Source: Camillea tinctor | Lineage: Eukaryota; Ascomycota; Sordariomycetes; Xylariales; Xylariaceae | Assembly: GCA_022578605.1 (NCBI GenBank) | Contig: MU394124.1 | Span: 62,001 to 126,000, forward strand | Direction of reading: 5' to 3' | DNA length: 64,000 nt | Part shown: positions 11,316 to 43,577 of the stretch, piece after piece | How positions within the stretch are numbered: the first letter of the stretch is position 1 | How the letters are laid out: every line of letters begins with the position of its first letter | Translations under genes and position numbers: made by a program | The notes under the pieces: model-generated | Told to the model about the DNA's origin: nothing | What the model saw: the letters and a program-made list of their open reading frames with translations, nothing else | Database searches by the model: none

Positions 11316-13079
11316 GATCGTCACTGAAGCTTGACCCTTTAGTTGGTATTCTTGCGATACGTGAATGTTATGATTATTATGAAGTCCCCACTAGACTAAT
11401 GATGAAAGGGGGGTTGGGACTTGTTGGCGTACTGGAGGCAGGCTTGGTGGTAGATACCCAATTTCTTAGTCAACGCGATAATCGATCTTTCTACTACCCT
11501 TTCCTATCAAAACCATTTTCCCATGGATCTCATGCAGCTTTGATGCTGCTCCGTACCATTCCGATAGTTTCCGAGCGCTTATCCCTCCCTACTTCCTTGG
11601 TTGGTGACTAGGGGGTGACGCGGCTGAGAGCTTGGCGAAATCAGATCTATCGTGTGCTCTATTTCTATACTCAAGATTGGCAATGATTTAACAAATAAAG
11701 GGCCGATACATAGCTTTCGCCGAGCCAAGGGTGGGCGGACGGTCCCGCTACGGAGCCGTTATGATGGGGACCGGTACACAAATGCCATGTCTCGGCGGCT
11801 TGGCGCTTTCATAGTAAGTCAACCCAAGGCTGTATCGAGTACTGTAGTTGTAGAATATGGCAACTGAATGTGCATGCGTTCCTTTGTTCCTTTGTTTCCG
11901 TCTTTGAATAGGCATGGATATATAATCCTCGGCAGCTTCTCGTTTTATGTCCCTATGGCAGTGTCCGGCTTGTCAACGTCGACTTGACTAGTCAGAAGTC
12001 AAAGAACAAGCTTGCAAAACCCAGATCTAACAAATATAAATAATTGCATACCGAGATGTGTATGAAAGTGAGTTCCTGGGGAAAACCCTTACTAACCCTG
12101 TTGTCAACCTGGGGCTAATAATGGATTCCTTTGTCTCCAGCTCCCACGAAAGCCCAGCTCCACTTCGGTAGCAAGTCACGACGCTCAGGGGAACGTGAAA
12201 CCTATATTTATCAAGGATAGCCGATCTAAAAAAGAGGATAAAAAGCGAGGATTACGCCAGAAAATCCGGAGCCCGTCAGTCAAAAATACAGCATCCTTTA
12301 CACACGGAGATGCGGCACTCCTTGCTGGTTTTATAGCATAAGGGGCGAACAACGAATGCGCACCATCATTCCGTCAGGTGGGCCTGTTTGGCCAATTCTT
12401 CGCATAAACACATATGTCTCGGGAGGAGTGTTCATGTAGAATGAGATACGAACTTATATCAGCTTCATGTAGCCTTAGCAGCCTAGCCTCTAGGTACCTA
12501 CTTACTCCGTACCGGCCTGGCTGCCTAGGTATGTTAAGTATGATCTTTTAAGGAAACACCCCATATATTGCATATTATTATATATCTCAACGATCCACAA
12601 CTCTCCACACTAGTGGTTTATCGATATATCTAGGTTATATCATTTCAATTAATCGCTTTGCTCATAATGTGCATTTGGCCGAGGCATTCAGTCTCTTGCA
12701 AGAATGCGTAGGATGCGAGTATACTCATGTTCAGAAGTGTGGTCTTACAAATAACTAGAATTCTATCCCAAGAGAAACAGAACTTTTAGAAACTATATTA
12801 AATTACCTATTCCTTCCCATTTTTCTATAGTCACATTGTGGCGTATCAGTGTACGATCACAGTTGACGTGTTCTCTTCGACCCTGAGCTTCACCTTCACC
12901 ACGGCCCCTACCCTGTTTACATCTTTTTGGAAAGCATTCCGTTCCCAACTTATAGCATTATCTTGCCACTTATTCAAGGAAAATTATGTAAGTGCGCCAC
13001 CAATTTCTCGTAAAGCCCTAAGGTTACGCAGATCTTTCTTTACCAGTCCGCCACACCATTTCCATATCTACTAACAAAT
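11316..13079. other. Intergenic region with a likely 5' UTR exon near its end
   Basis: No coding region is supported for 1.7 kb. Near the end, a strong donor (GTAAGT at 12988) and an acceptor (AG at 13086-13087) outline a 100-bp 5' intron of the next gene. The segment 12480-12540 carries CTAGGTACCTAC-type palindromes. Confidence 0.5.
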
Positions 13080-14774
13080 ATGCATAGGTCGACAGCGGTG
13101 ACATCACCGTCATCATTCCCCACTGTCAAGGAAGTCGTCAAGAGTGAGGCATTCCCCACGACAATATGGCAGCTTGAACCGCATCAGAGCGGCCGTCTCC
13201 CCGTCGCTATCGGGCGAGGCGGGCCCCTTGATATCAGTTGGGAAGTTCATGGCGATGGTCCCGTAAAGCTCATCGTGAGTCTTGTTACTTGTCCTATTAT
13301 TAGTATAATAACTATCATCCTATCCGAGTACCTGCTCATCACCTTTACTATTCCTCTCCCGCCCCTGCTTCCTAGTTTATCTGCGGTCTCGGCTTCCTCA
13401 AGACGTCCTATCAGCGGCAAACGCTCTACTTTGGACATGTGCACTCATCGCGATACTCGGTCCTGCTCTTAGACAACCGCGGCATGGGAGGTTCCTCAAA
13501 GCCGTTGATGAGATATAGCACCTCGGCCAGTGAGTAATTTTTAGAGTCGTTTATTCCCCCCTTTAGCCCAGCCTGGGAGTCAAAGTTTCCAATAATAGCT
13601 AAGCGTATGAGTTCGTGAGAGCTTTGACTCCCGAGACACGATCTCAAGAGTAAAAGAATTACCCAATATGGCAATTATTAACTCCAATTTGTACAGTGGC
13701 CGCTGATCTCCTCGAGGTGGTGGCACACCTAGGATGGGCGTCGACGCCACGCTCCCTGCATCTCTGTGGCATTAGCATGGGGGGTATGATCGCACAGGAA
13801 GTGGCATGGGCCGCACCAGAACTGATCGCGAGCTTGAGCCTCGTGTGTACGGCGGCCACTATCGAGGACCGCGCGTGTGAGTGATTTTGGGAGTCCCTTA
13901 TTCCCCCTTCCGGCGTGTCTCAGGAGTCAAATTTACCCATCAGGGTTAGGCGTAAGAGGTTTTACCCCTAGGACGCAATGGCAAGAGTAAAAAAAATCTT
14001 ACCAATATGGCAACTACTGAGTCCCACCGCTTTAGTGCACCCCGAGATCACACTGTTAGGTCAGCTGGCCAAGCGTGCCGCGATGTTGCGTCCCAAAGGT
14101 CCCGACGACGCCATCCGTTACGCTGCGTCGGCTATCTTCCCCGCGGGGTTTTTAGCCCGGCCCGACAACGCGAAACTGCCAGACGCAGCGACGATGCCGA
14201 GGTGCCGCATTCCCGAAGGCGGGTATCGCATGTTCGAGAGCAATTTCGCGCGGTTTGCTGCCCAAGAGATAACGAAGCAGCGGGACCCGTCAGGGGCATT
14301 CACCAGGGCTGGGTTTTTGATGCAACTCGTTGCCGCTGGGTGGCACCACAAGAGCACAGAACAGCTAAAGCAACTAGGGGATCAGGTCGGGCGCGAGAGA
14401 ATCCTAGTTAGTGAGTAATTTTGGGAGTCGTTTGTTCTTCCCTTTGGCCTGTCTCGGCCCAGCCCGGGCGCCAAAATTGCCTATCGTGGCTAAGCTTATG
14501 AGTTCGTAAGAATTTTACGCCCGGGACACGGTTTGAAGAATAAAATGGTCACTTAGCTTGGCAATTACTGACTCCCAATGTTGTAGTGCACGGGACAGAC
14601 GACAACATGATCTCTCCGGCACATGGGAGAAAGCTGATTGACTGTCTCCAGCCCGGAAAAGGCTTGATTATAGGTGGCATGGGGCACGCTCCCATTATCG
14701 AGCGAACGGAATGGTTTAATGAATCCATCGAGGAGATGTGTGCATTAGGGGAGAGGTTAAGTGGGCGGCAATAA
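13080..14774 (+). CDS. Alpha/beta hydrolase interrupted by three introner-like introns
   Basis: Five exons (13080-13274, 13376-13529, 13697-13876, 14036-14410, 14587-14774) join in frame to 364 codons (363 residues). The hydrolase features are LLLDNRGMGGSSKP before the nucleophile elbow, GISMGG (Ser143), the acid region HGTDD (Asp306/307) and GMGHAP (His335), so the catalytic triad is intact. The substrate cannot be told. Introns 2, 3 and 4 are related to each other in sequence (see separate entries), all sit in phase 1, and all are much longer than most introns here. A 5' intron (12988-13087) would replace the first codons by an ATG formed across the splice junction, in the same frame. The start at 13080 is therefore provisional. 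Confidence 0.85.
13530..13696 (+). mobile_element. Introner-like element 1 (intron 2 of the hydrolase, 167 bp)
   Basis: Begins GTGAGTAATTTTTAGAGTCG and ends in ACAG. An internal perfect 11-bp inverted repeat (13575-13585 with 13622-13632, GGGAGTCAAAG) forms a hairpin around the shared core GCTAAGCGTATGAGTTCG. AGTG is repeated at both exon borders, overlapping donor and acceptor. Its sequence is homologous to the elements at 13877, 14411 and 42502. Confidence 0.85.
13877..14035 (+). mobile_element. Introner-like element 2 (intron 3 of the hydrolase, 159 bp)
   Basis: Begins GTGAGTGATTTTGGGAGTCC and ends with an ACTGAGTCCCA segment and TTTAG. The ends are near-perfect inverted repeats (TGGGAGTC against GAGTCCCA, 7 of 8). 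The middle part shares GGAGTCAAA, AGAGTAAAA and CCAATATGGCAA with element 1. It is the most diverged copy of the core hairpin. Confidence 0.82.
14411..14586 (+). mobile_element. Introner-like element 3 (intron 4 of the hydrolase, 176 bp)
   Basis: Begins GTGAGTAATTTTGGGAGTCG and ends with GACTCCCAATGTTGTAG. The terminal inverted repeats TTGGGAGTC (14421-14429) and GACTCCCAA (14570-14578) are perfect over 9 bp. The internal hairpin pairs CCCGGGCG (14463-14470) with CGCCCGGG (14518-14525) and AAAATT with AATTTT. The arms differ from element 1 but remain paired, as expected for a conserved structure. The flanks share AGTG (5') and TAGTG (3'). Confidence 0.88.
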
Positions 14775-40871: not shown

Positions 40872-43577
40872 TCAATAGTCTTCATTGAGACCTCCAGAGA
40901 GACCGTACATTAGATCCTCGCTTCCGGATTGAAATCCCATCCAAGGGTTAAAAATAAGTCCAGCATCCTCTCGCCCAGCATCCATAGAAGACCCAATAGA
41001 GAGGATTGTTGACGAAGGTGCTGTGGTCTGCTCTCCGCCGTTATGAGATGTGATCGCTTGTATTGGGTGTATAGGATGATGCTGATTAGGGCTCTCAGTC
41101 GTGACAACTGCGACTCCTGAAGGCCCAGCAATCTCGTGGCTATCGTCAGCGAAGTCCGACTGTAGAAGCAGGCTCTGTACAGAAAGACGCTGGCGCGAAT
41201 TCGCATATTGTGACACCTTCGACGATGACCTAGACGGTCGGTCAGGCTCCGAGGGGGTCTCTGAAGACTGTGTCTGGCTTTGCAGAGCGAGACGCACTGA
41301 GTAGCTTGCTATTAGACATTCCAAATCCGTCTTCTATATATGCAGTGAATTAGTGGTTCGTTAGCTTGGAAACTAGCATAGTCCTCCGTCGGTTTAGTGT
41401 CACTACTACTTACCAACGGTCGCGTTGAGGCTGAATACGGGAAGAATTGAGTGATAATATGAAGCGACAACCTCGCCTTATTAATGGCTACGTCGAGTGT
41501 CGAAATAGCTCCCGGCAAGCGGGCGCCGAACATCACCAAGCGAGCACTTTCGAAGGCACACACTGCTGCATCGCGCTCCAAAAGACAGCTAGAATCACCG
41601 TGGTTCGTAAAGTCAGATAGGATTCGAATAATGTCCTCGGCGTGTTCTAAGCATTTTAACTGCATAGCAACGCGATCTCGAGGATCAATTCCCGCGAGAA
41701 CCCGACTGGGTGCTGCCTCTCCGTATCCATTTAATACCATTCGATATAGGTCGCAATGACACTGATGCCATGACATATCTAGGTCACATAGCATGGATTA
41801 ATGGTTAGTCGCGATGTTTGGAAGCAAATGAAAGTGTTGGGGTTTCACAAATCACATACGTAGCATGACGAACTGGGCTTGCCATTTGCACAAAGTGAGA
41901 TTCGTCACTGAATACCGATCAAGTGGGCCAAGGGTTGTATTGAGCAGCATCAACTCCCTTTCGAATTGTCTGATGCGCTGTCCTATCATCAAGGAAGACT
42001 CCTCTCCCAGTCCGACACGTCGGTTCAGCCTGCGTCACATAAGCGTTACTTTCCATTCATCAAGTATAGACGACGACAGGCGGGGAGATTGACTCACCTC
42101 ATAATCGCCCGCCTTGCCGAGGTCAATCTTATGAAGACACCACGTAGGCCAATCAACATGGCATTGTCAGACGGGCTGGGATGCAGCGTCCCAGTCTGGC
42201 TGTATTGCCCGGCCTCGAAAATGGCCTCACTACAAGGCAGCTGGAGATGAATGGTTTCCTCAGGGCACAGCTCGAACTCGCGCAGGCCGACGCAGAAGAA
42301 GTCGTCGAGCAGGTAGAGCGACCAGAATAGACGACGGCGCGCTTCCTGCGCGACATGTGCCAACTCCGAGCGCTCATAATTCAGACGAAGTGCCACCGCT
42401 GTGCGTGCCGCCAGAGCCGCCAGCATAAACGCCGCCGGGAATTCGCCGCTATCAATCCGGTAACGTACTACGAGCAACAGCGCTTGCAGGTGAAAGATAG
42501 ACTATAGAATCGAAAGTCAGTAATTTCTATATTAGACACCATTTCTATTCTTCAGACCGTGTCTAGGGAGTCGAAGCTCGTATGCTTAGCCAGGGAGGGC
42601 AAGCTCTAATGACTCCTGAGACGGGCGATGAATGACTTCCAAAACTACTCACCGGCCGCCCGATCTGCTGGAGCACTGTTTGTTCCGCCTCCTGCACCCA
42701 CAAATCGTGACAGAACGATGCGCGCTGTAGTTGCAACGCCGTCACGGCGCAGATTGCTAGCCTAAGGGGCTCGTTTATTGTCCGGTCTAGACATCGCTGG
42801 ATGACCGTCGGCTTGTGGAGGAAGGCGAAGGAAGGCAACGGATATAAGTATTGGAAATAGTCCTCCACTAGACTGACTGCCATCTCGAAGCCGAGAGGGG
42901 GCACGACTTTGGCCGATTCTGTCACTACCATGCGGCCTTGGGCTGGAGGCGATACGTCATGGCTCGTCTTGCCAGCTTCTACCACCGGGAGTGGCGGTGG
43001 TTCTATACGCGCGTCATTCGCTTTGTTCGACACTTTTTCATCCACGCCCGCAACTACGGTAGCTAGCCTTTTCGCCTTAGGATAGATGCAGTTTCGGTTC
43101 TTCCGCACGCAGTTAGAGCAGCTCGGCAGTTCACCTTGGCAACGCGTTTTCCTAGAGTGACAAGGTATGCAAGCTTGCATGCGACGTCGCCGCTCTGGTA
43201 GCTTCACGGTGTACTGACCGGGCGCTTTGCCGGGAGAGTGTTGAAAGGAACACTCGAAGCCAAGCCGGTCGCAGTTTTGACAGAGGCCTTCCCGCCCATC
43301 ACACCGTACCTAAACGAGGTAGTCAGCTAGAGTTCGCTGCTAGTGAGAAAGAGAGAGGTGAAGAATTGGGTATATGTGATAATGCACATATATGTATACT
43401 AGCCTTACGGATCCGACATTGGGAACAGGTAGTGCGTTTAGCAGGTAGTAGGGTTGGGGCAGTTATCGGGCCCAGCTTCTTATTGTCTTTATTATCACTC
43501 TGCTGTGAGCTCTGTTCGGGGGATTGGCTATCACGAGGGGCTTCCAAAGGACGTAAGGGTCGTAGGGTATCATTCAT
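40872..43577 (-). CDS. Fungal transcription factor with two tandem Zn2Cys6 clusters
   Basis: Six exons on the minus strand (43577-43404, 43309-42653, 42501-42098, 42029-41860, 41778-41414, 41333-40872) give 743 residues. Two complete zinc clusters, both C-x2-C-x6-C-x6-C-x2-C-x6-C, occur at residues 51-78 (CSQCRIRKVRCDG...) and 105-132 (CIPCHSRKTRCQG...), each followed by basic residues. The middle region is the fungal-specific TF domain (SIFHLQALLLVVRYR, ALRLNYERSEL, EARRRLFWSLYLLDDF). Intron 1 splits the first cluster and must use a GC-AG pair to give RKVRCD. Intron 2 is an introner-like element. The gene is transcribed away from the transporter 1.6 kb upstream, so it may regulate it. Confidence 0.88.
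42502..42652 (-). mobile_element. Introner-like element 4 (intron 2 of the Zn2Cys6 gene, 151 bp)
   Basis: Read on the minus strand: starts GTGAGTAGTTTTGGAAGTCA, contains GTCTCAGGAGTC, the core GGCTAAGCATACGAG, GACACGGTCTGAAGAATA and AAATTACTGACTTTC, and ends TATAG. Most of these blocks match element 3 in order. GGAGTC and GACTCC form an internal hairpin (42567-42572 with 42611-42616). It is inserted in phase 0 (GRP|SIF), unlike the three phase-1 copies, and shows no clear flanking duplication. Confidence 0.82.

Follow-up and report, generated by a model that had tools for sequence, protein, structure and literature searches.

An alpha/beta hydrolase gene in the stretch of DNA that we analyzed (the window; 64,000 nucleotides, G000:C74:62001-126000) contains three introns that look alike. 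This raises the question of whether they are copies of a single element and, if so, how that element came to be inserted. How fungi gain introns is an open question; in the accessible passages of the published work, ascomycete intron families are read as RNA-based and those of Xylariales as randomly inserted. We find that the three introns very probably belong to an introner family: judged from sequence, a canonical U2-type intron of about 177 nucleotides (nt) whose copies have entered the coding exons of numerous unrelated genes.

Three related introns in one hydrolase gene

The host gene (12986..14774, + strand) encodes, in our spliced model, a protein of 361 amino acids from inferred exons at 12986-12987, 13088-13274, 13376-13529, 13697-13876, 14036-14410, and 14587-14774, and a search with the hydrolase protein recovered its exons in the genome. 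The spliced protein is 90% identical, over 99% of its length, to a Biscogniauxia sp. FL1348 protein and 82% identical to a B. marginata protein, which places the DNA in a Biscogniauxia-like fungus of the order Xylariales. The model agrees with an earlier note on this DNA, made from the sequence alone, in placing the three introns in this gene, in their lengths, and in assigning phase 1 to each. The first (13530..13696, + strand, 167 nt) splits a Met codon as A|TG, the second (13877..14035, + strand, 159 nt) splits a Leu codon as T|TG, and the third (14411..14586, + strand, 176 nt) again splits a Met codon as A|TG, such that TG lies directly 3' of all three. The note had numbered them introns 2, 3, and 4, which becomes 3, 4, and 5 if the start codon is split: in the inferred model, a first intron at 12988-13087 appears to interrupt the ATG start codon after AT.

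All three introns share blocks in the same order and match a profile of the element with E values of 1.4e-45, 6.9e-31, and 1.4e-48, respectively; the profile was built from 30 copies, these three among them. The blocks quoted in the earlier note fit two of the copies well, and the copy at 13877 has divergent versions of them, with GTTAGGCGTAAGAGG as its core. That note had also spoken of four copies, and we likewise find a fourth in the window at 42502..42652 (- strand, 151 nt, phase 0), a copy outside the profile that nonetheless matches it with an E value of 8.1e-18. It lies in a fungal transcription factor gene, where a Fungal_trans domain match bridges the joined exons around it. This copy is followed by TC, not TG, after its acceptor.

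An Rfam scan of positions 13400-14700 gave a single match up to an E value of 1 (E 0.32), which was under its gathering score. When the hydrolase protein was compared with the genome, its own exons aside, only two weak matches were found (E values of 1e-4 and 5e-4; 34-40% identity), so the gene has no close paralogue there that could serve as an empty site.

Copies across the genome

The earlier note had proposed a genome search for further copies, and took a finding of none as evidence against an introner. We searched 44.7 Mb in 154 contigs, and further copies are plentiful. A 22-nt block from the 3' part of the element has 100 matches with up to three mismatches, and the 5' block, the core block, and a 27-nt 3' block have 29, 43, and 34, respectively; each reversed pattern has 0. 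Three DNA queries had 49, 65, and 100 first-look candidates, of which 40 were scored for each, and their counts are therefore lower bounds. Patterns together with profile matches in fetched loci mark out 128 separate candidate sites; 85 have been read in sequence, and the other 43 are known from a motif match alone. The elements were thus aptly called introner-like in the earlier note, as they form a repeated intron family spread over many unrelated genes.

The profile had 93 hits in the fetched loci, of which we analyzed 79 near-full-length copies, each followed from its donor to its acceptor. This set favors intact 5' ends, as a start within the first three profile positions was required. 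The other 14 hits start at an internal profile position and were left out: 8 arise because the palindrome described below matches itself on the reverse strand, and 6 are real copies that are internally deleted or cut (four with a GTGAG donor upstream, one with another donor-like site, and one truncated where its locus ends). One cropped copy, a 55-nt intron at G000:C64:207412-207466 (- strand, locus L050), is internally deleted and consists of the element ends only (GTGAGTAATTTTGGGAGTCGTGT...TTGCAG|TG).

The consensus (GTGAGTAAT...TACTGACTCCCATTATTACAG) is 177 nt long, and similarity extends across this whole length and ends at the splice sites, save for the TG that follows. Copies are on average 82% identical to the consensus and 72% identical to each other, which indicates that the burst of insertion is not fresh; the suggestion in the earlier note that the gain was recent is thus only partly right.

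The hydrolase is not the only gene with several copies. At G000:C65:41591-42294 (loci L036/L062), three copies lie within about 0.7 kb, the first two only 17 nt apart, a multiple target like the hydrolase. Pairs of neighbors less than 2 kb apart number 6 among the 100 pattern hits, compared with 0.9 expected (maximum of 5 in 2000 trials) if 22 Mb of genic sequence is assumed. Copies within the same gene are no more similar to each other than random pairs are, and so they look like separate insertions. We infer that some genes, including the hydrolase, received several independent insertions.

Splice signals and genic context

The copies carry their own predicted donor, branch-site motif, and acceptor, and these signals are conserved far above the rest of the element. 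In the best-matching copy of the window (14411-14586), the 5' splice site GTGAGT is at 14411..14416 (+ strand) and the branch site, assigned by motif, is TACTGAC at 14566..14572 (+ strand). Across the 79 copies, donor positions are 84-100% conserved, with positions 1, 2, 4, 5, and 6 at 99-100%; GT is kept in 78 copies and GTRAG in 77, and the T and A of the branch motif are present in 100%. Acceptor conservation is 97%, which is not an independent test, because the next AG was sought where the profile match stopped early. The sole copy without GT (G000:C74:52268-52443, - strand, locus L016) has a broken donor, ATGAGT. Given that unselected bases would be lost at a rate of about 18% each, the near-complete retention of the donor GT suggests that few copies lie outside transcribed genes.

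Most copies sit in coding context. Read in sense, the joined flanks have an open frame of 30 codons or more to each side of the junction for 64 of 77 copies, compared with 35 of 77 in antisense and 22% of shuffles. Codon usage favors the sense strand for 65 of 79 copies with 60-nt flanks and for 69 of 79 with 120-nt flanks. A few copies may lie outside coding exons, since neither flank size favors sense in 8 of 79 and no long open frame crosses the junction in 13 of 77. Twenty junction proteins were hand-picked from 63, and a Pfam match bridges the junction in 14 of them; among the other six, two have a Pfam match that does not span it (KR, ending at the junction, and pirin) and four have no match. 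Most copies therefore appear to have the marks of an introner, being genic, in sense, and equipped with splice signals predicted to work, and likeness over the whole length in unrelated genes was found across the 79 copies.

A preferred target and an excess of phase 1

Insertion sites are far from random. The base after the acceptor is T in 71 of 79 copies, and TG follows in 60 of 79 against a TG background of 6.0%; the base before the donor is A in 44 of 79 and G in 17 of 79. The combination YA|TG is found at 31 of 79 junctions, compared with a YATG background of 0.73%. The sequences thus show a preferred target of (Y)A|TG, entered mostly in sense orientation in coding exons. Ordinary intron candidates from the same loci, taken from a scan for splice signals and open frames with introner spans excluded, have TG after the acceptor in only 11 of 68 cases, and 14 of the 68 have A as the last base ahead of the donor. 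The 11 with TG nevertheless exceed the 6% background, and some may be decayed introners.

Phase is also biased. Of 56 introners with a clear phase, 39 are in phase 1, 11 in phase 0, and 6 in phase 2, and ordinary intron candidates are in phases 0, 1, and 2 at 20, 23, and 25 (n = 68). Junctions with TG are in phases 1, 0, and 2 at a ratio of 35:7:4, compared with 415:174:394 for flanking coding TG sites (P = 1.7e-6), and junctions with YATG at 24:0:3, compared with 59:17:39 for flanking coding sites (P = 2.3e-4); these P values treat the copies as independent. Phases were called from open frames, and codon usage confirms 62 of 63 of these calls. As TG and YATG junctions outstrip the phases of their flanking sites, the excess of phase 1 is not explained by the A|TG motif. 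The earlier note had read phase 1 in all three hydrolase introns as a sign of a mechanistic constraint, and the genome-wide phase and TG counts bear this out.

Insertion without duplication

Conserved proteins allow the probable site before insertion to be reconstructed. In the hydrolase, the Met split by the intron at 13530-13696 is Met in 12 of 12 aligned fungal proteins (our own included), and where the intron at 14411-14586 splits a Met, the aligned relatives have Met, Leu, Ile, or Val; the alignment with 11 fungal relatives is gapless at both junctions. The junction at 13877-14035 is uninformative, because two Biscogniauxia proteins match ours there and the other nine relatives lack five residues nearby. 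In an SRAP/HMCES-like protein, the junction Met is matched by Met in both HMCES chains shown and by Phe in 2f20. The junction Met of an arylsulfatase and that of an oligo-1,6-glucosidase are each matched by Met in the three Protein Data Bank (PDB) chains shown for that protein; all three alignments are gapless at the junction. A short-chain dehydrogenase has no conserved Met in the PDB alignments shown, and a one-residue gap lies near its junction.

Met is encoded by ATG alone, so the simplest empty site for the four Met genes is A|TG. At these conserved Met codons, sequence comparison shows that insertion was seamless, with no target-site duplication and no codon gained or lost, as judged from protein alignments of the four genes that give a clear answer. 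A search for direct repeats over a range of offsets found GTG at both intron ends in 48 of 78 copies and AGTG in 33 of 78. We rejected these as target-site duplications, as the Met codon pre-exists; with the Met ATG conserved, the repeats arise from the splice sites and the target together. Other repeats in the search were shifted or shorter forms of GTG and AGTG, or matches between splice-site letters, and were likewise rejected.

A near-palindromic consensus

The consensus is a near-palindrome in which near-terminal inverted repeats unite both ends of the sequence. Aligned to its own reverse complement, it scores 41, whereas 200 shuffles average 12 and reach 27 at most; this maximum is surpassed by 18 of 79 copies, and the best copy scores as high as the consensus. 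The predicted RNA fold of the consensus has an energy of −59.2 kcal/mol (z = −5.1) and pairs GUAAU (nucleotides 5-9) with AUUAC just 5' of the terminal AG. In the copy at 14411-14586, the 5' arm (GTAAT..GGGAGTC) corresponds to 14415..14429 (+ strand) and the 3' arm (GACTCCC.., consensus GACTCCCATTATTAC) to 14570..14584 (+ strand), with the pairing itself seen on the consensus.

This structure fades with divergence. The farther a copy lies from the consensus, the weaker are its symmetry and its fold (Spearman 0.47 and −0.65, respectively), and copy folds average −45.6 kcal/mol (best −65.4), compared with −45.9 under simulated neutral decay. No sign of covariation was found among the 79 copies, with 83.3% paired cells compared with 83.0% for independent columns; double changes that still pair number 71 of 120, a figure that stands without comparison to a transition-biased null. 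The common fold that RNAalifold computed for 30 copies was poor, at −2.3 kcal/mol. Given near-neutral decay and no covariation, the fold is most likely a trait of the mobile ancestor rather than one maintained for splicing. The symmetry score of real copies averages 21.6, compared with 17.8 for simulated ones, an excess for which the neutral-decay reading does not account.

How the introns may have inserted

RNA-mediated integration is the mechanism that we prefer, and we regard it as somewhat probable. The mobile form would be the excised intron RNA, with the near-terminal stem keeping its two ends together. This RNA could integrate into an expressed gene at A|TG, either through reverse splicing and reverse transcription or through ligation into a break, and the integrated copy would become fixed as DNA. 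We favor excised intron RNA because the inserted unit is the spliced unit, is in sense and genic, and has a stem that joins its ends. Ligation of intron RNA into a break has been proposed for Hypoxylaceae introns in passages of PMC12403724. The strong preference for A|TG is unexpected under reverse splicing and under random-break repair alike. Tentatively, integration might be both seamless and site-preferring, perhaps combining intron RNA with some cleavage at A|TG, and might enter in-frame Met codons beyond what the ATG motif leads one to expect. If this is true, then the A|TG scar could outlive the intron sequence and mark decayed introners among ordinary introns, and we offer it for tracing old introners.

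A different mobile form is conceivable, namely a DNA transposon, non-autonomous and with inverted repeats, whose insertion at A|TG causes no target-site duplication and which carries its splice sites by chance, with non-genic copies rare through target choice or loss. The near-palindromic consensus with its near-terminal inverted repeats would suit such an element, as would the strongly sequence-specific target, and according to passages of PMC9860276, introners of Acanthoeca have inverted repeats without duplication. However, similarity stops at the splice sites, GT is kept in 78 of 79 copies, few copies look unconstrained or intergenic, and target-site duplication is absent at the four conserved Met codons. 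We consider a DNA transposon possible but doubtful.

Other readings concern what exactly was inserted, or whether anything was. The TG after the acceptor could be part of the element rather than of the target, with exon bases replaced or added; it is a far stronger signal than the A before the donor, and the short-chain dehydrogenase, with its unconserved junction Met and nearby one-residue gap, would fit. Homologues of four genes nevertheless have the junction Met with no indels there, which makes this reading improbable. Slightly more improbable is that the element overwrote or homogenized older introns by gene conversion and that no new introns were gained. A comparison of orthologues at the protein level is compatible with older introns at the same positions, but the A|TG context and phase 1 bias are unlike those of ordinary intron candidates from the same loci, and two copies in one gene resemble each other no more than a random pair does. 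That short fungal introns merely resemble each other around their splicing signals, by chance or convergence, has already been refuted and has a negligible probability: those signals are common to all introns, but the similarity spans the whole 177 nt, and 100 matches compare with none for the reversed control.

Comparison with known systems

The family can be set against known introners and related elements. In the introner survey of PMC9860276, passages describe sequence likeness reaching to near both splice boundaries and enrichment in genes, as in the family here. They report neither inverted repeats nor target-site duplications for ascomycete families; the present family also lacks duplication but stands apart in its near-terminal inverted repeats and its target motif. 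With regard to introners derived from MITE-like DNA transposons, inverted repeats are present (near-terminal, on the consensus) and a target-site duplication is absent. The family thus combines three measurable signatures: inverted repeats, a target that is not duplicated, and sharp specificity for A|TG. It is probably a natural record of the birth of new introns, and its mechanism is testable across a few Biscogniauxia strains.

Helitrons have 5' TC and 3' CTRR ends and, with no duplication, insert between A and T. Our family agrees with them in the A|T position but not in its consensus ends, GT..YAG.

The introner-like elements of Dothideomycetes (Fulvia fulva and Dothistroma), as far as described in parts of PMC4457414, likewise occupy many genes, some with two gained copies. 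They have stable secondary structures according to passages of PMC9024468, like the family here. They belong to another fungal class, and the comparison made here is one of published descriptions; the main text of PMC4457414 contains neither the term "insertion site" nor "target site".

The earlier note knew of no description of this sequence family, and we found no paper naming a Biscogniauxia introner in a word-based search of the open-access literature, which is blind to sequence families as such. A search for "introner" with "Xylariales" in the same literature gave stwintron papers only, the supplementary species lists of PMC9860276 being outside its scope. Biscogniauxia and Graphostroma are absent from the main text of PMC12403724 and PMC9024468.

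The sister introns of Hypoxylaceae, from the same order (Xylariales), share many features with our family, as far as the available parts of these papers describe them. They are repeated and seamless, lie in coding exons, have no target-site duplication, and show symmetry: their inverted repeats are near-terminal, and the 5' arm starts from donor nucleotide 5. Their symmetry is clearest in the least diverged copies, two in one gene have been reported, and they lean to phase one (about 45% for Hypoxylaceae stwintrons in passages of PMC9024468). The differences are equally specific. Our family consists of canonical introns, not [D1,2] twin introns, with G before the donor in 17 of 79 copies only; its consensus lacks GUAUAAAAAC and TTTCTAGAAA, in a comparison based on the published motifs and not on full sequences; and its 3' arm overlaps the branch site. 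The A|TG bias here also contrasts with the random sites without exonic bias described in passages of PMC8469720, PMC12403724, and PMC9024468. On the base preceding the donor, the absent GUAUAAAAAC and TTTCTAGAAA, and the TG bias, we rejected identity with a sister stwintron or a cropped sister intron, at least as these are described in the parts available. The family is thus akin to the sister introns of Hypoxylaceae in its seamless insertion and its symmetry, and differs from them in its sequence, in not being formed of stwintrons, and in its preference for ATG.
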